Below are positions 6,481 through 33,554 of a stretch of DNA of 33,554 nt, one piece after another. The position numbers and the translations under genes are program-made. The notes beneath the pieces were generated by a model. The model was not told the DNA's origin. It saw only the letters and a program-made list of their open reading frames with translations, and did no database searches. The stretch is taken from assembly GCA_027858745.1 (NCBI GenBank), contig JAQICB010000035.1, positions 1 to 33,554 of the forward strand, written 5' to 3'. The DNA comes from Bacteroidales bacterium (lineage in GTDB: Bacteria; Bacteroidota; Bacteroidia; Bacteroidales; UBA1715). The stretch's first letter is position 1; every line of letters begins with the position of its first letter.

Positions 6481-7734
6481 TTATTCTTGATATTTTTTAA
6501 TCACAAGACTTCCATTATGACCTCCAAACCCGAAAGTATTGGAAAGAGCATATGTTACTGAACGTTCTTGTGCCGTATTGAAAGTTAAATTCAAACCTTG
6601 ATCTATTTCTGAATCAGGATTTTTGAAATTAATGGTTGGTGGTATAATGCTTTTTTCAATAGCAAAAATACATGCAAGTGCTTCCATAGCACCAGTTGCA
6701 CCCAACAAGTGACCTGTCATAGATTTAGTTGAACTAATATTCATTTTATACGCATGCTCACCAAACAATTTAGTAATAGCTAACAGTTCAGCAATATCGC
6801 CACGCGGAGTAGAAGTTCCATGCACATTAATATAATCTATATCAGCTGTATTAATACCGGCATCAGCGATTGCTCCTTTCATAGCACTTAACGCACCATC
6901 ACCTTCCGGATGAGGAGCAGTTAAATGGTGAGCATCGGAACTCATACCGCCACCAATAATCTCTGCATAAATATGTGCGCCACGAGCTTTTGCATGTTCG
7001 TATTCTTCGAAAATAAGGGCAACGCCACCTTCTCCCATAACAAAACCATCTCTGGTTGAATCAAATGGACGAGAAGCAGACACCATTTCATCATTATTTT
7101 CAGAAATAGCTTTCATAGCATTAAAGCCGCCTATACCACTTTCATTTATTGTTGCTTCAGACCCACCGGTTAAAATAACCTGAGATTTACCCATACGAAT
7201 ATAATTCAAGGCATCAATCATTGCATGAGTTGAAGACGCACATGCAGATGTTATTGTATAACTTGGCCCACGCAATCCATATTTCATAGAAATATATCCC
7301 GCTGCGATATTAGAAATCATTTTGGGAATAAAGAACGGATTAAAACGAGGATTCCCATCGCCCGTTGCGTATGAAGCAATTTCATTTTGGTATGTAGTTA
7401 AACCACCTATACCGGAACCCCAAATAACGCCACATTGATCCAAATCAATTGATTCAAGATCAATCTTAGAATCAGCTACACACTCTGCAGCAGCAGCCAT
7501 AGCTAAATGCGTATACGGATCCATTTTACGAGCCTCTTTCCTATCGACATATTTACTTAAATCGAAATTTTTTACCTCACATGCAAAGCGAGTTTTAAAT
7601 TTCTCCGGATTAAAGTGAGTAATTGGTCCACAACCACTCACTCCATCTCGGAGACTTGAATAAATTTCGTCTAAATTATTGCCAATAGGAGTAAAAGCAC
7701 CTATACCGGTTACTACTACTCTTTTAAATTCCAT
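6481..7734 (-). CDS. fabF: 3-oxoacyl-[acyl-carrier-protein] synthase II
   Basis: The 417-residue condensing enzyme elongates acyl-ACP with malonyl-ACP in type II fatty acid synthesis. The catalytic triad is visible: Cys165 in TSACASSTH, His305 in NVHGTSTPRGD and His342 in KSMTGHLLGATGAMEA, with Lys337 nearby. The length matches KASII (about 410-420). Its ATG at 7734 lies 24 bases after acpP, and its stop is 4 bases before rnc, giving a three-gene operon. KASII (FabF) is preferred over FabB from the overall sequence and the acpP neighbour. Confidence 0.97.
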   Translation of the reverse strand: MEFKRVVVTGIGAFTPIGNNLDEIYSSLRDGVSGCGPITHFNPEKFKTRFACEVKNFDLSKYVDRKEARKMDPYTHLAMAAAAECVADSKIDLESIDLDQCGVIWGSGIGGLTTYQNEIASYATGDGNPRFNPFFIPKMISNIAAGYISMKYGLRGPSYTITSACASSTHAMIDALNYIRMGKSQVILTGGSEATINESGIGGFNAMKAISENNDEMVSASRPFDSTRDGFVMGEGGVALIFEEYEHAKARGAHIYAEIIGGGMSSDAHHLTAPHPEGDGALSAMKGAIADAGINTADIDYINVHGTSTPRGDIAELLAITKLFGEHAYKMNISSTKSMTGHLLGATGAMEALACIFAIEKSIIPPTINFKNPDSEIDQGLNLTFNTAQERSVTYALSNTFGFGGHNGSLVIKKYQE

Positions 7735-7758
7735 AAGCTGAAAAATAGAATAATAAGT

Positions 7759-7995
7759 TTATTTGAGATTTTTTTCGATGTAAGAGATAGCATCACCTAC
7801 AGAGGCAATACCTTCAGCTTGCTCATCAGGAATGGAAATATTGAATTCTTTTTCGAATTCCATGATTAATTCTACAGTATCTAATGAATCAGCGCCTAAG
7901 TCATTAGTAAAATTAGCTTCAGGAGTTACTTCACCCTCGTCAACACCTAACTTGTCTACAATGATTGCTTGTACTTTTGATGCAATTTCTGACAT
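7759..7995 (-). CDS. acpP: Acyl carrier protein
   Basis: The 78-residue acidic protein has the phosphopantetheine attachment motif [20 protein letters not shown], with modified Ser37. It carries growing acyl chains for FabF, encoded just downstream. Length and motif are standard. It is the first gene of the acpP-fabF-rnc operon and is divergent from purN across 291 bases. Confidence 0.97.
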
Positions 7996-8286
7996 AGTTG
8001 TAAATTTTAGTTAATAATTAATAGTTTGTTATTTTTAAATCTTTGCAAATAAATGTATTTTTTCTTTTACAAAAAAGAAAAAAATGATAATTTAATGTAC
8101 ATTTTTATTCAGACCGCTTATAAACAGGCATTGTACACACAAAAAAAATATAAAAAACATGACATCACTCTCCTTTTTCTTGTTCTGCAGTATAATTCAT
8201 CCTCTTCATGAATAAATTCACGGTCGTTTTTCATCATTTTACGATGAATTATTTTTACTTTTGTTGCAGATAATAATACATACTCT
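7996..8286. promoter_or_regulatory. Divergent acpP/purN intergenic region
   Basis: For acpP (minus strand), TTTATTTG (8046-8053, 7/8 match) with TTTG at 8070-8073 is a candidate promoter, though the 16-base spacer is short. For purN (plus strand), TACTTTTG at 8256-8263 is an exact -7 match placing the start near 8268, about 19 bases before the ATG; its upstream box is not clear. AATTCATC (about 8195-8202) and GATGAATT (8243-8250) form an inverted repeat of unknown meaning. A minus-strand frame at 8118-8423 crosses purN and is not credible. Confidence 0.45.
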
Positions 8287-8856
8287 ATGACAAAAATTGC
8301 AATTTTCGCTTCGGGTTCGGGAACTAACGCCGAAAATATAATAAACTCATTTTCAGGGACACCTCTCACAATAATATCTATTTTTTGTAATAAAAAAAAT
8401 GCCGGCATTATTGATCGTGCCAAAAGACTTTCTGTTCCCTGTCGTATATTTTCTCGCGAAGAATTTTACGATTCTAATGCAATTCTATCTGAATTAATAT
8501 CTCAACAGGTTGACTATATAATTTTAGCAGGCTTTTTATGGAAAATTCCGGAATCACTAATTAAGGCATTTCCCAACAAAATAATCAACATTCACCCGGC
8601 ACTCTTACCAAACTATGGTGGAAAAGGAATGTATGGGTCTTTTGTACACGAAGCTGTTATTACCAACAAAGAAAAAGAAAGTGGTATTACTATTCATCTG
8701 GTTGACGAAAAATACGATAATGGTACAATTATTTTCCAAGCACGTTGTCAAATTAACCCTGACGATACGCCGGAGTCTTTGGCAGCAAAAGTTCATGAGC
8801 TTGAATACATGCATCTTCCCTCTGTAATTCGGAAATATATTGAAAAGGGGAAATAA
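8287..8856 (+). CDS. purN: Phosphoribosylglycinamide formyltransferase 1
   Basis: The 189-residue enzyme transfers a formyl group from 10-formyl-tetrahydrofolate to GAR, the third step of purine synthesis. Visible motifs are the nucleotide-site loop ASGSGTN (8-14), the catalytic NIHPALLP (101-108: Asn101, His103) and 'ESGITIHLVDEKYDNG' (131-146), which includes the catalytic Asp. Length is normal for PurN. It ends only 3 bases before the stop of the converging GH65 gene, so the two transcripts must overlap at their 3' ends. Its position next to acpP-fabF-rnc is a recurring Bacteroidota arrangement. Confidence 0.96.
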   Translation: MTKIAIFASGSGTNAENIINSFSGTPLTIISIFCNKKNAGIIDRAKRLSVPCRIFSREEFYDSNAILSELISQQVDYIILAGFLWKIPESLIKAFPNKIINIHPALLPNYGGKGMYGSFVHEAVITNKEKESGITIHLVDEKYDNGTIIFQARCQINPDDTPESLAAKVHELEYMHLPSVIRKYIEKGK

Positions 8857-24107: not shown

Positions 24108-25550
24108 TTATTGTATGTTCATATCAAAAATTTCATATCGATTAAATTTTGTCCAATACAAACGGGCTAAATCTTCAATATAATTCCAATATGCAGGAGT
24201 TAGATTACCATATAATCTAACTCCTTTTTTTATATCAGATTTCATTTGCATCGCTACATCCTCTTTTACGGTAAACTCAACAGTGAATCCATTGCAGCGT
24301 GACAAAATTGTAGGAATGTTATATACCGTATCAGAAATATCAATTAAACCTTGACCAATAGTTGCTCCGGTACTAATTTGAACGCCATCATTAAAACAAC
24401 TTAAAGGAGGGCGGGTACCGGCATACGAAACTATCTCAATATTATTTGCCCCCACATTAAAAAACTCACACGCACGTACACCTATTTTTGCTCCAATAAT
24501 CGAATAAATACCTATATGTCCATGAATTTCATTCGTTAAAACCATAGCTTTCCATTCATTAAGCCCAAATGCAGCAATTGTAGAATCAAGAATACGCGCA
24601 TATTGTGGGACATACAAATCCTTATTTGTCGGAAATTCAGCAAATAATTGAGATTCGGGATTCTCTCCGGATTCATATATCGAAAACAAAGTATTATGCA
24701 CTAAATCAATCGGCAAAGACGACAGAAGAGACACATTTGCAAGATTTTTTTGCACCATCTCGACCTCAAATAAAATAGGATTTGTGACATACAAAGGAAT
24801 TAAATCATCCCATAAAAACAACTTGTGTTTTTTCATTCTATCTTGAACAAGTGAAGAAGAACAGGATGAATATATTTGAGCACTATACCGCGAACGTGCA
24901 TGCTGAAAATTAGAAATATATGCGGGTGTACAGATTGCATCATCACGCGTGAGCGAAACTATATGGATAGGAACATCAAAGCTTTGAATACGTGTATACG
25001 CAGCCGTGTCGAGCTCATAATTATACCCGCTCTTCAAACGCTTCTCGTTGTACCACACAATTTTTTCAATACGACTTGCATATTCGGGCTTACGAACCAG
25101 CAACTCGGCATATGTAGAAAGTGAACCGAAAGCAAGGAGCGTTATATTCTGAGAACAATGAGAAAAAGCCTGTTCGATAACCTCTTGTGAAGAACGAGGC
25201 TGAATTAAAACCCGAGTAGACATTCCCCATTGTAAAGATTGTGAAAATTGACGCCATACAGGTGCAGATATATCTTTCCTCGAAGAATACCCAACAGGTA
25301 TACCTTCATGATGCAAATCACTCAACAGTGAATTCACTTTTTGAGCTCCCTCTTGTGCAGGTAATGAGCCATTCGATGTCGTTATAGCCAAAACACGCAT
25401 ATCATAACTTGCCAAACAGAGAGTAATAGCACGAAAATCATCAATTGCACAATCGCTATCAATAATAACATGATAGCTCGATTTTCCGGCATGAGAAAAA
25501 ACAACATAAGGAATTAAAAGACAAATAAGTATACTGCGTATTTTTTTCAT
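24108..25550 (-). CDS. Exported nucleoside hydrolase-like / FmdE-like fusion protein
   Basis: The 480-residue protein has a signal peptide (about 1-21). The N-terminal half (about 25-290) is nucleoside-hydrolase-like: the Ca-binding DSDCAIDD motif (31-38) and 'NITLLAFGSLSTYAELLVRKPE' (split 135-156) match the IU-nucleoside hydrolase fold. At the family's usual catalytic HDP position it has WDDL (247-250), so the key His seems missing. The C-terminal half (about 315-475) resembles the FmdE family (formylmethanofuran dehydrogenase subunit E-like): 'EIHGHIGIYSIIGAKIGVRA' (341-360) and 'CFNDGVQISTGATIGQG' (385-401). The Cys residues found in the FHGHxCPG and TGCT motifs are Gly and Ala here. It lies 34 bases after a TonB receptor gene, in its operon. 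The function is unknown; a periplasmic ligand-processing role is inference. Confidence 0.75.
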   Translation of the reverse strand: MKKIRSILICLLIPYVVFSHAGKSSYHVIIDSDCAIDDFRAITLCLASYDMRVLAITTSNGSLPAQEGAQKVNSLLSDLHHEGIPVGYSSRKDISAPVWRQFSQSLQWGMSTRVLIQPRSSQEVIEQAFSHCSQNITLLAFGSLSTYAELLVRKPEYASRIEKIVWYNEKRLKSGYNYELDTAAYTRIQSFDVPIHIVSLTRDDAICTPAYISNFQHARSRYSAQIYSSCSSSLVQDRMKKHKLFLWDDLIPLYVTNPILFEVEMVQKNLANVSLLSSLPIDLVHNTLFSIYESGENPESQLFAEFPTNKDLYVPQYARILDSTIAAFGLNEWKAMVLTNEIHGHIGIYSIIGAKIGVRACEFFNVGANNIEIVSYAGTRPPLSCFNDGVQISTGATIGQGLIDISDTVYNIPTILSRCNGFTVEFTVKEDVAMQMKSDIKKGVRLYGNLTPAYWNYIEDLARLYWTKFNRYEIFDMNIQ

Positions 25551-25584
25551 GTGATTATTGTATTATGGATGATTTCTGAAACAA

Positions 25585-27393
25585 TTAAAACCTGCACGAC
25601 ACTCCATACTGTAAGGTTAATCCCGGCATAGGATAACCATAATTAATTTCATATTTTTGATTCAATATATTATTAACTGCAAAAAATATCTGAGACCATT
25701 TTGTGGATTCAATAGATATTTTTGCATGGAGTCGTGTATAATCTTCCGTTATAAGTGGATCGAGCGATGTGTATAAACCTTGAACTTGTTGCAAAGAAGT
25801 ATATATCGAAAAAATATCATACGAATATTCGATACCAATATTAAACTGATGTTTGGGAGCAGCGAGAATAGGCGATTTTGTATGTAAATAGGCATAATTA
25901 GAATAAAGATTCAAATTATCATGTACTATATATTTCAAAATTGTTTCTACGCCTGTATTATTAAAAGTTCCAACATTTTCACGTTTCATTTGAGGGTATT
26001 GTCCAACAACCTGAATAAGATTTTCACCCTGTGAGATAAAACCAACGCACTCAAAACGCATACGATTCTCGAAAAGATACTGTGTATATGCAATTTCGTA
26101 ATTCTTCATTTCCTCTGCAACAAGTTGTTCATTCGGAGCAAATAAATATAACTCCATAATTGTAGGATTTCTAAATCCCTTCGAAAAAGAAGTTTTAAAA
26201 CTTGTTTGATTATTATAGGCATATGTAGCACCAACAAAGGGAATTAATTGCTCTCCATGTAAGGAATTATGTTCGAGTCTCAGTCCCGCCGAAACGGTGT
26301 ACTTATCAAAAAGCTGTTGTTGAATATGCATATACCCCGCAAATTCATTTAACAAAATCAGCGAATCAGAAGCCATACCGGCATTACCAATTCCACCAAT
26401 ATTTTTATAATCGATACCGCACACGAGAGTATTTCCGGCAAAAGGTTTAAATACCTGATGAAACATAAGACCTCTATTATAATCAGTAGATTCCCATCCG
26501 TCCGAAAGTTTATGTATGCCATTATTATCAAAAAGTATTAACCGACCTTCTGTTTGAGCAAATGTATGGTTGAGCGTAACCGAGGTTTTTACTCGGTACA
26601 CATCAATATTAAACGGGCTGGGATCGAAAACCGGTCCGTTATCATGAGCCTCATACGAAGCAATACTATGACTCGCCGAAAAAGACAGATTATCAGTAAA
26701 GGTATACCCGAGTTTCATATATCCATTCGAGAGTGAAAAATCGGTATTTTTTCTATGTCCATCAGATTGAGCATGATTCACCGAAAAAAATGCATTCAAT
26801 TTATCCTTTTTATATCCAAGAGTTGCAAAATATTTTTGAGTATTAAAACACGCATATGAAGTTCCGAATCGGATTTGTGAGCCGTTATCGACCTGCTCTT
26901 TCGTTACAATATTAATAAGACCTCCCATTGCATTAGAACCATATAAAACAGAAGCAGGACCTCGAATCACCTCAACACGAGCAGCATCGGTAGAAGAATA
27001 TGCGTCAGGTAAAGGATGACCAAAAATCCCTTGATATTGTGGATGACCGTCGATTAACACAAGTACAGACGTATTAGGACTACCTCCTACTCCACGAATA
27101 GAAATTGATCCGGCAGCACCGGTAGAAACACCAAAACCCACCATTCCTCGCTCGGTCACAAATACACCGGGAGTAAAAGACTGAATAACAGGTAAAATAT
27201 TACTATGTCCATGCAATTGAATAGCTTTTTGGGGTACCAAAGAAATAGTCATTGGCACAATTGACCGCACTTGTTCTGATTTAGAAGCAGCAACAACAAT
27301 TTCGTCTAAATTGACTGTATCTTTCCAAGTGCTTTCTTGAGAAAAACTGATATTCCATAAAAAAAATAAAATAAAGTAAAAATATTTTTTCAT
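25585..27393 (-). CDS. TonB-dependent outer-membrane receptor
   Basis: The 602-residue receptor has a signal peptide (about 1-18), a TonB-box-like 'DTVNLDEIVVAAS' segment, a plug domain (about 30-165: 'SIRGVGGSPNTSVLVLIDG', 'RVEVIRGPASVLYGSNAMGG') and a beta-barrel ending in Phe (LQYGVSCRF). There is no N-terminal carboxypeptidase-like or STN domain, and no SusD partner, so it belongs to the vitamin/siderophore-like group rather than the glycan-uptake (SusC) group. It is the first gene of an operon with the nucleoside-hydrolase/FmdE-like protein, which suggests the ligand of one is the substrate of the other. A weak -7 box (TACAATTG, 27412-27419) precedes it. The ligand is unknown. Confidence 0.93.
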   Translation of the reverse strand: MKKYFYFILFFLWNISFSQESTWKDTVNLDEIVVAASKSEQVRSIVPMTISLVPQKAIQLHGHSNILPVIQSFTPGVFVTERGMVGFGVSTGAAGSISIRGVGGSPNTSVLVLIDGHPQYQGIFGHPLPDAYSSTDAARVEVIRGPASVLYGSNAMGGLINIVTKEQVDNGSQIRFGTSYACFNTQKYFATLGYKKDKLNAFFSVNHAQSDGHRKNTDFSLSNGYMKLGYTFTDNLSFSASHSIASYEAHDNGPVFDPSPFNIDVYRVKTSVTLNHTFAQTEGRLILFDNNGIHKLSDGWESTDYNRGLMFHQVFKPFAGNTLVCGIDYKNIGGIGNAGMASDSLILLNEFAGYMHIQQQLFDKYTVSAGLRLEHNSLHGEQLIPFVGATYAYNNQTSFKTSFSKGFRNPTIMELYLFAPNEQLVAEEMKNYEIAYTQYLFENRMRFECVGFISQGENLIQVVGQYPQMKRENVGTFNNTGVETILKYIVHDNLNLYSNYAYLHTKSPILAAPKHQFNIGIEYSYDIFSIYTSLQQVQGLYTSLDPLITEDYTRLHAKISIESTKWSQIFFAVNNILNQKYEINYGYPMPGLTLQYGVSCRF

Positions 27394-27435
27394 ACGTTAT
27401 CATTTTTACGACAATTGTAAGAGAAATAATATCAT

Positions 27436-27470
27436 AAAAAAAGGTGCATTCAAATTCTGAATGCACCTTT
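27436..27470 (-). terminator. Rho-independent terminator after the giant repeat protein
   Basis: On the minus strand, a perfect 13-base stem (27458-27470 with 27440-27452, arms AAAGGTGCATTCA/TGAATGCACCTTT), a 5-base loop and a run of seven T's (27436-27442) lie 27 bases after the stop codon at 27497. Confidence 0.9.
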
Positions 27471-27496: not shown

Positions 27497-30400
27497 TTAC
27501 TTTTTTGTAACCTTAACTGTTTGTGACGCACCATTGGTATACATTATATTAATGAGATACATACCACTTGAAGCCTTATTCATATCAAGCGTCACCTCAC
27601 TACTATTAACCGTTTGGTCAACAACCGTTTCTCCTAACAAACTCACAACCGTTACCGTAGTTATTTCAGATGAAGCCTTTACGTAAACATATGAAACGCA
27701 TGGATTAGGATAAACAGATACGTCAATTGAGACCTCATCTATAGACACCGATATTTGAGAATCACGGAAGGCTTGCAATGCAAGTTCTAAGACAATCACT
27801 TTAGCATCAACTTCTTCTTGTGTTGCCAAAGCATCTCTACTCAAAATACGAGCAGATTGCAAGTCACTGTAAAAACTAATATAATCAGTTTGAGGATATT
27901 GACCTGATTCGGTACCGGTTTGTGCAGTCTGCAGAAGTGTGTCACCCTCAGCAATTAAACTATCCAGCACAGATTTATCTATCGGCACCGGAACCTCAGA
28001 AGCAATAAATACCGCAATCGCCGATTCTAAAACAATCACTTCGCTGTTTAACTCTTCTTGTGTTTCAGCATTCTGCATCACATTTTGTGCATGAGAAATT
28101 CCAGCAAGTAGAGCATTAACAGCAGATAAAGGATAATTACCCGGTTGATCTCCGGTATTATCAACAGCTAAATCAAGTTTAGATTTTGCAACATCAATTG
28201 TAGCAGATAATAAGGATTTATCAAGTGGTTCAATATAAATTTGCAATGCTTCGAATGTGTCAATAGCACTATTTAAATCAGCTATCGCTTGATTTATTTG
28301 AGCTTGAGTTGACGAAGCATTATTATATACTGTTTGAGCAGCATTAATTGCCGTCATTAAATTAGCTTTAGAACCAATCGGATACTGACCATTTTCCTCG
28401 CCTTCAACCGCACCATTATTTAATGCGAGTGCTTCAGACATTGTACTATATAACACGGCACGATCGACAGTTATTTCAAGAGCTTCGAATAAATCAACAG
28501 CAGCTTGCAAGTTTATAACAGCCAAATTAACATCATCCTGAGAAGCTTGACTATCATCATACACAGATTGTGCAGTTGTAATTGCGGTCATTAGATCTGC
28601 TTTAGCACCTTCAGGATATTCCCCCATATTCAAACCTTCAACAGAATTATTGTGTAAGGTGGTTGCTGTTGCAATTTTAGTAAACAAAGTTCCTTTGTTA
28701 ACACCAATTACTGATTCCTGGAACGTTGTAAGAGCAGCATCCAAATCCGACTCAGCTTGATCAACATCTGCTTGAGTAGATGCAGGATTTGTTGCTATAG
28801 AAGTTGCATAATTAATTGCTAGTTGAAGTGTTTCTTTCGAACCGGAAGGATATTCACCATCGGCAGGTCCTTCAACAGAATTATCATGAAAATCTTGTGC
28901 AGTTACAATAAGTGCATCAAGAATTTGTGTATTAACAACAACCTCCTGAGCTTCAAAACCAGCAATAGCTGTATTTAAATTCGTTACCGCAGTATTAACA
29001 TCTGCCTGAGAAACAGTCACATCAGTAAAGACAGATTGTGCTGTCGTAATTGCAGCTTCTAAATCATCAATAGCAGATTGTGGATATTGACCATTTTCAG
29101 CACCAGCCTCAGCGTTTGCAGCTAAGGTTTGAGCAGACGTGATTGTTGATTCTAACACCGATTTATCGATAACAATAACTGAAGCTTCAAATGTAGTAAT
29201 AGCCGTATTTAAATTCGTTACCGCCACATCAATCTCATCTTGAGTAGCCTCAGCATTGTCATATACTGTCTGAGCAACCGCTACTGCAGTACCAAGGTCA
29301 CTTATTGCAGATTGAGGATATTCACCGGCAGCATCACCCGGCACAGCAGCAGTTTGAAGTGCTTCTGCAGAGGAAATTGTAGACTCTAAAATAGATTTAT
29401 CAACAATATTCAATTCCGGTAAGTCTAACACAGTACCTTTAATCTTCACATCATCAACCCAAATTTGACCTTCAGTGCCATCAGCATCTTGAACTTTCCA
29501 TTGAAATTTCACAACATCTGTTAAATCCCATGGTACAACTACAGCATCAGGCCAATCGTATTGAGTAAAATCAGCCCATGTAAGATTCAATACAGTCCAC
29601 TCATCTGACGCAGGAATATCATAATAATAATTCGCATCATCGGTAATAGCAGATAAGTTAATTTCTAAAATAAATGCATTATTTGATTTGTATGCAAATT
29701 GAATTCCTGTAGAACCACTCAAATCATAAGGAGTCTCATCAGCATTAAGAGGCATACCCATACCAACAAACGGAGGATATCCCAACTCAACTTGCCCCAT
29801 CAGACTATAATCAATCATCGCAGCACTACCGGTACCATCAGCTCCCGGAGAAGACATGGTAAACGGATCTGTTTCGGTAGATAAAGGAACGACAGTTGAA
29901 CTACCTCCCGGTTCATTATCAGAATAGGAGAACCAGTATGTATTCATATAGGTAAGATTCTCTAACTCAGCATTAAAAATAAGTGTTTCATCGACAACTT
30001 TTTGCTTATTAAATTCTACTTCAGCAGCTTCTAAATCAAGTATAGCCTGGTCTACAACAGCTTGTGTTGAACTTGCATTATTTACGACAGCTTGCGCAGC
30101 ATCGATTGCCAATTGGAATTCAGCCTTTGCACCGGGTTTATAGTCACCCAATGCTGTACCTTCTACCGCATTATCATGAATTAATTGTGCATCACTAATT
30201 GCCGAAACGAGAGTAGATTTATCAACAACCTCTATTATGCACGTAGCTTTTTTTGTTGAATTATCAAGTGATGTTGCAGTAATAGTAGCATTACCTGCTG
30301 CGAGTGGTGTTACCACACCTGTTGCAGAAACTGACACAACCGACGGCATATTAGATGTCCATGAAACATTTTTATTATATGTCTCAACCGGACTAATCGT

Positions 30401-33400
30401 TGCCGTTAATTGTTCGGTAGAACCACCCACTTCTAGAATTAAAGACGTTGGTGAAACACTCACACTTTCTACATGAACAACCGTAATAGTAACACTACAA
30501 TCATTAGATGTAATATTTGATCCATCAGTCGTTGTAGCTGTAATCACAGTTGTACCTTCACTAACCGGAGTCACGTTACCTTGACTATCAACAGTTGCAA
30601 CAGCTTCATCAGCCGAAGACCACGATAAAACAGTGCTCGCACCTTCAGGGTTAACTGTTGCTAAAATTTGTCCACTTGCTTCAATATCTAATGTAATTGA
30701 ATTATCAATACTTAAACTTGTTGCTATAATTGGAATAATTGTCACATAACAGGTATCCGTAAATGTTCCGTCCTCCGATATAACAACAATACCAACAGAA
30801 TCAGGTTCTGAAACGGCAAGAGGATTAACTGTTACTTTTCCTGTACCGGGCACAACCTCTGCTAAAGCAGGATTTAATGACTCCCATGTAATATTTTTAT
30901 TCGTCGCATTCGAAGGAGAAATAGTAGCAGTAATATCGAGCGTTTCATTTAATTGAATCTCATCCGAATGAATATTAAGACTCACACCGGTAACTGAAAT
31001 GCTATTGATAGATACTAGAACATCAACTGTTGCTGCATATCCACCATCTACCGTAGTTACCGTAATCACTGTAGTTCCTTGAGCTTCCGGAGTCACGACA
31101 CCATCAACAACACTTGCGATAGTATTATTGTCCGATTCCCACACAACATCTTGATTTGTAGCATCTTCTGGCAAAACTGTTTCTGCAATAACGCCATTAG
31201 AACCACCTACAGTTAATGACAATTCCGAAACATTTGTAGTAATTCCGGTAACCGCAACCGGTTCAACTGTTACCGATACGGTCTCAGTTACTCCACTTCC
31301 ATCATTCGCCGTTGCGGTGATAATTGCAGTTCCAACACCAATAACGCTTAACACTCCATTTGTTACTATTACAGCGGCAGTATTATCAGAACTCCATAAA
31401 ACTGTTTTGTCAGACGCATCTGTTGGTTGCACCTCAGCTGAAAGAGTATATGAAGCACTTGAAGTATTTAAAGTTATTTCTTCGCCTGAAAGCAAATCTG
31501 TACCATTATTACTTAATATGATATCGGTCACCTGATTTGCAGACACCTCAACAGTACAGGTCGCTTGGTAACCACCATCTTCAGTTGTTACTGTAATTGT
31601 TGCATTACCAACGCCTACAACTTCAACCACACCATTTGTTACCGTTACCACATCAGTATCATCTGATTCCCATGTAACAGTCTGATTAGTCGCATCTAAG
31701 GGGTCAATTGTTGCTTGTAATGTTACTGCTGAACTCGTAGCAGACAATGACAATGTTGTTTGATCGAGTGCAACTCCTACCACCGGTATAGCTTCTACTA
31801 TTACCGATACAGTCTCAGTTATTCCACTTCCATCATTCGCCGTTGCAGTGATAATTGCAGTTCCAACACCAACAGCGCTTAACACACCATTTGTTACCGT
31901 TACAGCAGCAGTATTATCAGAACTCCATGAAACTGTTTTGTCAGTTGCATTTGATGGTTGCACCTCAGCTAAAAGAGTATATGAAGCACTTGAAGTATTT
32001 AAAGTTATTTCTTCGCCTGAAAGCAAATCTGTACCATTATTACTTAATATGATATCGGTTACATCTAAAGTAGCTACCGTTACATTACATGTATCAGTAA
32101 AAACACCATCATTTGTTGTAACAATAATTTGCGTAGAACCTAAATTAGCTCCAGTAAGAATACCATTAGATACGGTTGCAATTGTTTCGTCTAAACTTAA
32201 CCACGAAACCGATTTATCTGTTGCGTCTATCGGTTCCACCGCAGCAGATAATGTAAGCTCTTCATTAATTACAATTTCAGCAGTTTGAGGAGAAACGGTC
32301 ACACCTGTTACCAACGTAACTGAAGCATCAACCGTTACCAAACATGAATCTATAACTGTCGCATCTGCATTACATGTTACAAAAATATAGCAAGAACCAA
32401 CACCTTGTGGCGTAACATCACCGGTAAGTGCATCAACAGTTGCAACAGTAGCATCATCAGAACTCCATGTGACCGTTTTGTCAGTTGTATTAGAAGGACT
32501 AACAGTGGCAGTTAATGTTTTTGCAGCATCACCATCGACAAAACCTAAAGATTCAGCTGTTACTACCGAAGTAGGCAACACTTCTGTTACTGTTATCTCG
32601 GCTGTACCTGTAATACCACTCACATCATTTGCTGTAGCAATAATGGACACAATACCATCAGCAACACCGGTCACAACACCTGTTGTTGGATTAACAGTTG
32701 CCACTGCAGTATTAGCTGAACTCCACGTAACTGTTTTGTCCGTAGCATATGTCGGAACAACAGATTCTGTTAATGTAATAGTAGATCCAACATTTACCGA
32801 ATTCGAAGCAGGACTAATTGTAATTTCAGAAATCAATATTGGATCAACAACAATAGTTGCTGTTTCTGTTATTCCACTGCCGTCATTTGCTGTTGCAGTT
32901 ATAGTAACAGTTCCAACAGACACTCCGGTTACCAATCCTGTTGCAGTATTAACTGTTGCAACATCAGTATTATCCGAACTCCACGTAACAGTTTTATCCG
33001 TTGCATTTGTTGGAGCAACAGATTTTGATAATTGTAATGTTTCATTTATAAGTATTGCTTGACTCGCTGGAGAAATAGTTATTCCCGTTACTGCTTGATT
33101 CGCAACCGTTATTTGAGCTGTGCCCGTAATACCGCTTCCATCGTTTGCTGTAGCCGTTATAGCAGCTGGGCCGGGAGAAACAGCGGTTACCAAACCTGTT
33201 GCAGCATCAACTGTTGCAACATCAGTATTATCTGAACTCCATGTCACCGTTTTATCCGTTGCACCGGAAGGTAAAACAGACTCTGTTAATTGCTGTGTTT
33301 CCGTGGTTATTACCGTCGCAGTAGCCGGTGAAATTGTAATTTCAGAAACCAATATTGGATCAACAAAAATAGTTGCTGTTCCTGTTATTCCACTGCCATC

Positions 33401-33554
33401 ATTTGCAGTTGCAATTATAGTAACAGTTCCAACAGACACTCCGGTCACCAATCCTGTTGCAGTATTAACTGTTGCAACATCAGTATTATCCGAACTCCAC
33501 GTAACAGTTTTATCCGTTGCATTTGTTGGAGCAACAGATTTTGATAATTGTAAT
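27497..33554 (-). CDS. Giant BIG2/FIVAR repeat surface protein with T9SS type A sorting domain (N-terminus beyond window)
   Basis: The frame is open from the right edge to 27497, over 2,000 residues, and the N-terminus is missing. Apparent starts near 33451 are internal codons. In order: at least 13 BIG2-type Ig-like domains (33554 to about 30225; recurring DATDKTVTWSSDNTDVATV and ITATANDGSGIT). One FIVAR-like helical repeat follows (about 30222-30005), then a carbohydrate-binding-like jelly-roll module (about 29995-29415: 'LSGSTGIQFAYKSNN', 'WTVLNLTWADFTQYDWP', 'GQIWVDDVKIKG', like CBM11/CIA30). Seven more FIVAR-like repeats come next (about 29412-27745; DKSVLESTI...GQYPQSA...AITTAQ). A C-terminal T9SS type A domain closes it ('VYPNPCVSYVYVKA', ending MYTNGASQTVKVTKK). 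The protein is exported by T9SS and probably works as a long surface adhesin or glycan-binding filament. A terminator follows the gene. Confidence 0.92.
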   Translation of the reverse strand, partial: LQLSKSVAPTNATDKTVTWSSDNTDVATVNTATGLVTGVSVGTVTIIATANDGSGITGTATIFVDPILVSEITISPATATVITTETQQLTESVLPSGATDKTVTWSSDNTDVATVDAATGLVTAVSPGPAAITATANDGSGITGTAQITVANQAVTGITISPASQAILINETLQLSKSVAPTNATDKTVTWSSDNTDVATVNTATGLVTGVSVGTVTITATANDGSGITETATIVVDPILISEITISPASNSVNVGSTITLTESVVPTYATDKTVTWSSANTAVATVNPTTGVVTGVADGIVSIIATANDVSGITGTAEITVTEVLPTSVVTAESLGFVDGDAAKTLTATVSPSNTTDKTVTWSSDDATVATVDALTGDVTPQGVGSCYIFVTCNADATVIDSCLVTVDASVTLVTGVTVSPQTAEIVINEELTLSAAVEPIDATDKSVSWLSLDETIATVSNGILTGANLGSTQIIVTTNDGVFTDTCNVTVATLDVTDIILSNNGTDLLSGEEITLNTSSASYTLLAEVQPSNATDKTVSWSSDNTAAVTVTNGVLSAVGVGTAIITATANDGSGITETVSVIVEAIPVVGVALDQTTLSLSATSSAVTLQATIDPLDATNQTVTWESDDTDVVTVTNGVVEVVGVGNATITVTTEDGGYQATCTVEVSANQVTDIILSNNGTDLLSGEEITLNTSSASYTLSAEVQPTDASDKTVLWSSDNTAAVIVTNGVLSVIGVGTAIITATANDGSGVTETVSVTVEPVAVTGITTNVSELSLTVGGSNGVIAETVLPEDATNQDVVWESDNNTIASVVDGVVTPEAQGTTVITVTTVDGGYAATVDVLVSINSISVTGVSLNIHSDEIQLNETLDITATISPSNATNKNITWESLNPALAEVVPGTGKVTVNPLAVSEPDSVGIVVISEDGTFTDTCYVTIIPIIATSLSIDNSITLDIEASGQILATVNPEGASTVLSWSSADEAVATVDSQGNVTPVSEGTTVITATTTDGSNITSNDCSVTITVVHVESVSVSPTSLILEVGGSTEQLTATISPVETYNKNVSWTSNMPSVVSVSATGVVTPLAAGNATITATSLDNSTKKATCIIEVVDKSTLVSAISDAQLIHDNAVEGTALGDYKPGAKAEFQLAIDAAQAVVNNASSTQAVVDQAILDLEAAEVEFNKQKVVDETLIFNAELENLTYMNTYWFSYSDNEPGGSSTVVPLSTETDPFTMSSPGADGTGSAAMIDYSLMGQVELGYPPFVGMGMPLNADETPYDLSGSTGIQFAYKSNNAFILEINLSAITDDANYYYDIPASDEWTVLNLTWADFTQYDWPDAVVVPWDLTDVVKFQWKVQDADGTEGQIWVDDVKIKGTVLDLPELNIVDKSILESTISSAEALQTAAVPGDAAGEYPQSAISDLGTAVAVAQTVYDNAEATQDEIDVAVTNLNTAITTFEASVIVIDKSVLESTITSAQTLAANAEAGAENGQYPQSAIDDLEAAITTAQSVFTDVTVSQADVNTAVTNLNTAIAGFEAQEVVVNTQILDALIVTAQDFHDNSVEGPADGEYPSGSKETLQLAINYATSIATNPASTQADVDQAESDLDAALTTFQESVIGVNKGTLFTKIATATTLHNNSVEGLNMGEYPEGAKADLMTAITTAQSVYDDSQASQDDVNLAVINLQAAVDLFEALEITVDRAVLYSTMSEALALNNGAVEGEENGQYPIGSKANLMTAINAAQTVYNNASSTQAQINQAIADLNSAIDTFEALQIYIEPLDKSLLSATIDVAKSKLDLAVDNTGDQPGNYPLSAVNALLAGISHAQNVMQNAETQEELNSEVIVLESAIAVFIASEVPVPIDKSVLDSLIAEGDTLLQTAQTGTESGQYPQTDYISFYSDLQSARILSRDALATQEEVDAKVIVLELALQAFRDSQISVSIDEVSIDVSVYPNPCVSYVYVKASSEITTVTVVSLLGETVVDQTVNSSEVTLDMNKASSGMYLINIMYTNGASQTVKVTKK
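31270..31532 (-). repeat. 531-bp-offset repeat, copy 1
   Basis: About 263 bases that recur at 31801-32063. The end nearest 31432-31532 is almost identical between the copies, encoding the unusual NNGTDLLSGEEITLNTSS start of a BIG2 domain; the rest has scattered differences. Confidence 0.85.
31801..32063 (-). repeat. 531-bp-offset repeat, copy 2
   Basis: Second copy of the 31270-31532 unit, shifted by 531 bases, which is two BIG2 domains. It indicates duplication of a domain pair. Confidence 0.85.
32815..33038 (-). repeat. 516-bp-offset repeat, copy 1
   Basis: About 224 bases that recur at 33331-33554 with only a handful of differences; the last 150 bases differ at about three positions. The unit is about 86 codons times two. 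Confidence 0.9.
33331..33554 (-). repeat. 516-bp-offset repeat, copy 2 (runs to window edge)
   Basis: Second copy of the 32815-33038 unit, shifted by 516 bases and probably continuing beyond the edge. The near identity at DNA level points to recent duplication or gene conversion. Confidence 0.9.

Follow-up and report, generated by a model that had tools for sequence, protein, structure and literature searches.

A TonB-dependent receptor and an exported fusion of a nucleoside hydrolase (NH) with an FmdE domain, encoded next to each other in a bacterium of the order Bacteroidales, most likely import nickel or a closely related metal. We put at about 0.62 the probability that the pair is a metal-acquisition module, with orthologues under the nickel repressor NikR, and that it works by the mechanism proposed below. 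Computation gave the domains, the folds, a conserved site, a recurrent operon with NikR, receptor and permease, and a NikR box in relatives; from these we infer which metal this organism takes up, that it is bound directly and passed on, and what the NH half does. The window is the whole stretch of DNA analysed, 33,554 nucleotides of contig JAQICB010000035.1, and comes from a genome of 2.9 Mb that is 98% complete. The features of interest are the following:

27434..27470, minus strand: hairpin and T run that terminate the upstream gene, read directly from the sequence
25585..27393, minus strand: TonB-dependent receptor (TBDT), 602 aa, with Pfam plug and barrel; orthologue of receptors controlled by NikR boxes
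27016..27018, minus strand: codon of His126, a residue of the plug motif QYQGIFGHPLPDAY that does not vary among 27 orthologues
25551..25584, minus strand: spacer of 34 bp between receptor and fusion
24108..25550, minus strand: exported NH/FmdE fusion, 480 aa, from Pfam and AlphaFold2
25491..25550, minus strand: signal peptide, residues ~1-20, seen as a hydrophobic N-terminal helix both in the sequence and in the model
24660..25469, minus strand: NH half, residues 28-297, with the Ca/ribose set kept and Trp247 at the His241 position
24111..24659, minus strand: FmdE half, residues 298-480, lacking the C-terminal zinc finger; fold matches 2gvi and 2glz
24516..24524, minus strand: HGH (His343 and His345), two predicted metal ligands, equivalent to His15 and His17 of 2glz
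24396..24398, minus strand: Cys385, third predicted metal ligand, equivalent to Cys55 of 2glz and Cys61 of 2gvi

Re-examination confirmed the coordinates, strand, gene order (receptor upstream, fusion downstream) and 34-base gap given for this pair in an earlier note on the DNA. Immediately ahead of the receptor, the hairpin and T run close a large gene, so the pair is likely to have its own promoter and transcript. Positions 27497-33451 of the window encode a very large secreted protein of 1984 aa, unrelated to the pair, which consists of helical repeats and repeated segments of Ig-like (Big-type) character and has a sorting-like tail at its C-terminus.

The domain structure of the fusion is well defined. 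Pfam places IU_nuc_hydro (PF01156) at residues 28-262 (E 5e-17, 62.9 bits against a cut-off of 34.2) and FmdE (PF02663) at residues 342-442 (E 1e-13, 51.9 bits against a curated cut-off of 22.9), and the AlphaFold2 model of the full protein, built with 42 family members, has a pLDDT of 91.9 and a pTM of 0.90. Residues 22-296 match nucleoside hydrolases in a structural search, the best being 1yoe (Z 30.6 over 264 aligned residues, 2.6 Å), with Z 30 to RihA and Z of ~30 also to the purine-specific IAG enzymes 4i71-4i75 and 1hp0. As the search with the full model returned NH folds only, the C-terminal 183 residues were folded separately, giving a pLDDT of 94.3. The earlier note had proposed a signal peptide, an NH-like half and an FmdE-like half, and these are borne out by Pfam and AlphaFold; its motifs DSDCAIDD, WDDL, HGHIG and STGATIGQG are all present in the fusion. 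The C-terminal half, on whose fold the note had made its idea of a coupled system depend, does fold as FmdE, with Z scores of 15.7, 14.6 and 11.5 to three solved FmdE proteins (2gvi, 2glz and 3d00) and 6.8 to the best unrelated structure.

The fusion is a real family, far beyond chance. A scan of genome contigs with the single protein found no relatives; the profile search of GTDB genome contigs gave 389. The family is found in 53 of 393 sampled genomes of the same order, about one in seven, and in two of 395 genomes sampled across the phylum, so that it looked nearly confined to the one order. Two Candidatus Aminicenantes bins (L142 and L144) also carry the fusion gene, through gene transfer or binning error. 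The same order contains FmdE proteins of intracellular type (L092, L093 and L094, near 7500-8500) which keep EFHGHxC and the CxxC zinc finger; as judged by eye, their neighbours are TauE/SafE-like, cation-diffusion and ArsR-like genes, a setting different from that of the fusion.

Gene neighbourhoods were compared in 55 loci, of which one is the window and 54 come from the order. An orthologous TBDT adjoins the fusion or lies one gene away in 19 of these, nikR is part of the fusion cluster in 11 (~0.07 expected by chance; identity confirmed by PF08753 in examples), a permease with the motif HTLxGPDHYLPF and an invariant GPCEPLIP stretch in 10, and the large subunit of a [NiFe]-hydrogenase lies near the fusion in six. 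The typical operon runs nikR, receptor, fusion, permease. Odoribacter laneus (L143) is a cultured relative whose receptor gene adjoins the fusion. A second set of 74 named GTDB contigs, partly overlapping the first, gave 21 receptors, 12 NikR, 10 permeases and 13 exact NikR boxes. Coupling of the receptor to a periplasmic protein, which the earlier note had suggested, is thus upheld in both sets. The nickel reading must nevertheless accommodate the fact that more than half of the fusion loci have no nickel-related neighbour. It must also accommodate a genome of the same genus as the window (G001), in which receptor and fusion are both present and unlinked. In the family tree, receptor-linked members do not form one clade, linkage changes at least seven times, and the window clade of nine contains a NikR-boxed member, G077. 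Three loci (L084, L086 and L095, the last from another part of the phylum) have a partner consisting of the FmdE half only; since some NikR operons carry this half alone, it is the core, constant part of the protein.

The association with NikR extends to the DNA upstream of these genes. De novo motif search of 39 upstream regions recovered the palindrome GTRNYAC-N13/14-GTRNYAC at 20.1 bits, against 10.2-11.7 for shuffles, and 1.02 Mb contained 20 exact copies against an expectation of 0.7. It is the same palindrome, with the same spacing, as the published NikR consensus of delta-proteobacteria, GTGTTAC-[N13/14]-GTAACAC (PMC545781). Most copies are upstream of nikR or the receptor and some directly before the fusion gene (L043); in L181 a box at position -35 precedes a fusion gene that has neither nikR nor receptor as neighbour. 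Within the order sample of 393 genomes, NikR is encoded in 18 of the 19 with a receptor-linked fusion, the sole exception being the window genome, and overall in 26 of the 53 that carry the fusion family against 64 of the 340 that do not (p = 5.5e-6, kinship ignored). In two fusion-carrying genomes (L107 and L115) NikR stands beside the permease and a gene that is LarC-like by its sequence start, an arrangement that suggests nickel supply to lactate racemase-type enzymes. Other NikR operons of the order (L097, L105, L100 and L114) have ABC-type or CbiM-like transporters, annotated by sequence start, and not the fusion.

These partners bear directly on the cargo. The earlier note had favoured capture or processing of molybdenum or tungsten, a pterin or another nucleotide-like cofactor; the name FmdE derives from the operons of formylmethanofuran dehydrogenase, and a ribosyl group could be bound by the NH half. 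We now regard such a cargo as very improbable. A NikR operator lies upstream, the partners that recur are NikR, the receptor, the UreH-like permease and [NiFe]-hydrogenase, and no molybdenum, tungsten or pterin gene stood out in a non-systematic look at the neighbours. Most FmdE (PF02663) genes in general adjoin genes for metal transporters (PMC2954224).

The putative metal site agrees with a metal cargo, with one defect. The metal ligands of 2glz are His15, His17, Cys19 and Cys55, and the crystal has mixed Zn/Ni occupancy (PMC2954224). Three of the four remain in the fusion, and alignment of 56 members shows His343, His345 and Cys385 in practically every one, the exceptions among members that cover the site being the divergent L088 and an N-terminally truncated frame without the first His. 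Glu341 and Asp388 are also conserved. The other ligand is lost, Gly347 standing for the Cys of HGHxC (Cys19 of 2glz); this counts against nickel, as does the model, which is metal-free and monomeric where the known FmdE proteins form dimers. The claim that the family cysteines are replaced by Gly and Ala is correct for Gly347; Ala396 replaces a Cys outside the four 2glz ligands, and the remaining cysteine ligand, Cys385, which the earlier note had overlooked, is kept. In many fusions (e.g. L029, L039 and L045) the signal peptide is likely to be cleaved at AxA|H, so that the mature protein would begin with a His, a possible extra metal ligand. In the divergent L088 the NH Asp cluster is intact except for D248, and the FmdE metal residues are gone.

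The NH half has its own conserved set. D31, D33, D37, D38, N177 and D248, which form the Ca/ribose site, are present in almost every full-length fusion; L043 has lost most of the set. The position of the catalytic His (His241 of IU-NH) is Trp247 in the window and W, G, Y, A, C, F, S or H across the family. The description of the protein as having altered catalytic residues therefore applies to this one variable position and fails for the Ca/ribose set and for three of the four FmdE metal ligands, all conserved. Since IAG enzymes use Trp as well, Trp247 would leave NH activity possible.

Could the system simply scavenge nucleosides, the receptor importing nucleosides or nucleotides, the NH half splitting them and the FmdE half assisting? 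The strict retention of the Ca/ribose residues would be explained, as would a Z of ~30 to active nucleosidases, IAG enzymes included. The free variation at the catalytic His would not, and a system for nucleoside uptake would hardly be expected to answer to NikR; moreover, receptor and regulator persist in NikR operons where the protein is FmdE-only or, as in L043, where the Asp cluster is lost. We consider this improbable. Another proposal treats the NH half as a non-catalytic scaffold and the fusion as a nickel buffer or sensor, holding periplasmic nickel for protection or for gating the receptor rather than carrying it. The unconserved His241 position agrees with this, and NikR-type boxes fit import at low nickel and do not prove transfer, but the NH Asp/Asn set is too strictly kept for a mere scaffold and the permease is often part of the operons. 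We consider the proposal about as improbable as scavenging.

The identity of the metal is least certain for the window copy itself. The window genome encodes no NikR, and neither the receptor nor the pair is preceded by a NikR box; at 98% completeness the genome also lacks [NiFe]-hydrogenase, urease, LarC, CbiM, CODH and the UreH-like permease, all of which weighs against nickel. A prismane-type match considered for CODH is a hydroxylamine reductase. For the family the case for nickel is strong; it is extended to the window copy through the orthologues, and the metal of this copy could be another, such as cobalt. It is possible that the window lineage lost NikR and continues to use nickel in some enzyme other than those looked for, or that it shifted to cobalt or another metal.

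The receptor is BtuB-like in size and its best NCBIfam model is TonB-B12, at 103 bits against an equivalog cut-off of 600, a score that does not class it as BtuB. Together with the missing NikR and nickel enzymes this favours cobalt or a cobamide as cargo, at least in the window lineage, with the NH half acting on a riboside such as alpha-ribazole. Such a cargo is unlikely, though the least so of the alternatives. NikR boxes precede the orthologues, none of whose neighbours in the examined loci was recognised as a cobamide gene, and the missing CbiM is a point against cobalt. The nearest NikR-boxed relative of the window receptor is that of G077 (L029), with 52% identity and an exact NikR box 64 bp upstream, and residue 121, Met elsewhere, is Gln in both, as it is in G001 and G092. 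The plug motif Q(F/Y)MG(I/L)(F/M)GH (receptor residues 121-126, window 27016-27033) contains the invariant His126, a candidate metal contact, and His294 (window 26512-26514) is likewise invariant.

Nickel import remains the preferred explanation, and the following scheme would account for the observations. The TonB-powered receptor would carry nickel, free or as a small chelate, through the outer membrane. The exported fusion would take it in the periplasm at His343, His345 and Cys385 of the FmdE half and hand it on, in the relatives to the UreH/NicO-like inner-membrane permease, with a [NiFe]-hydrogenase or LarA-type enzyme as the presumed end user. The NH half, its Ca/ribose residues intact, would probably bind or trim an organic ligand that accompanies the metal, or may serve as a docking scaffold. 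A more specific version, which is unlikely, has nickel arriving on a ribose-containing (nucleoside-like) chelator whose N-glycosidic bond is gripped or cleaved by the NH half, the released nickel being taken by the fused FmdE site. If true, the fusion would be a periplasmic enzyme-chaperone stripping metal from a nucleoside-type nickelophore.

To our knowledge, little is understood, outside Helicobacter and the enterobacteria, of how nickel crosses the outer membrane and is handled in the periplasm. The pair offers a candidate nickel route for many Bacteroidales, including the gut genera Alistipes, Odoribacter and Tannerella, which are among the relatives found by the profile scan. The exported FmdE domain gains a likely metal and a context, and a testable function is proposed for a fusion of domains otherwise annotated as a nucleosidase and a methanogenesis protein. 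Recognised nickel transporters are scarce in Bacteroidetes especially: six of 30 genomes were counted as nickel users, with almost no assigned nickel transporter (PMC2667541).

Several parts of the system have known counterparts. In Helicobacter, nickel import through TonB-dependent receptors is controlled by NikR. The same type of import is known in outline from the loci of Caldithrix abyssi, which share NikR, the NikR box and the TonB receptor with the relatives of the window pair but use NikMNQO ABC transport and have no described NH/FmdE partner (PMC5317091). The open-access literature yielded no paper joining FmdE with TonB, FmdE with nucleoside hydrolase, or NikR with Bacteroidales and TonB, and an exported NH-FmdE protein as periplasmic partner of NikR-controlled TonB nickel import appears to be undescribed. 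The permease of the relatives, absent from the window genome, shares with UreH-type nickel permeases the His/Asp-rich GPDH motif and the linkage to nickel enzymes and NikR (PMC2667541); its assignment is by motif and context only, its Pfam name being DsbD_2. The fusion resembles the FmdE proteins of PF02663 (2glz, 2gvi and 3d00) in fold, in the HGH and Cys site and in a second motif of Asp, Gln and Thr (D388, Q391 and T397). It differs from them in being exported and fused to NH, in the change of the HGHxC Cys to Gly, in lacking the C-terminal zinc finger and, in the relatives, in its linkage to NikR and not to fmd genes, on a non-systematic look. With the nucleoside hydrolases of PF01156 (RihA and T. 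vivax IAG-NH) it shares the fold, at a Z of ~30, and the Ca/ribose Asp/Asn set, whereas its His241 position is variable and the protein is fused and exported. Trp247, which occupies that position in the window, presumably compares with Trp260 of T. vivax IAG-NH, next to a Ca-binding Asp.
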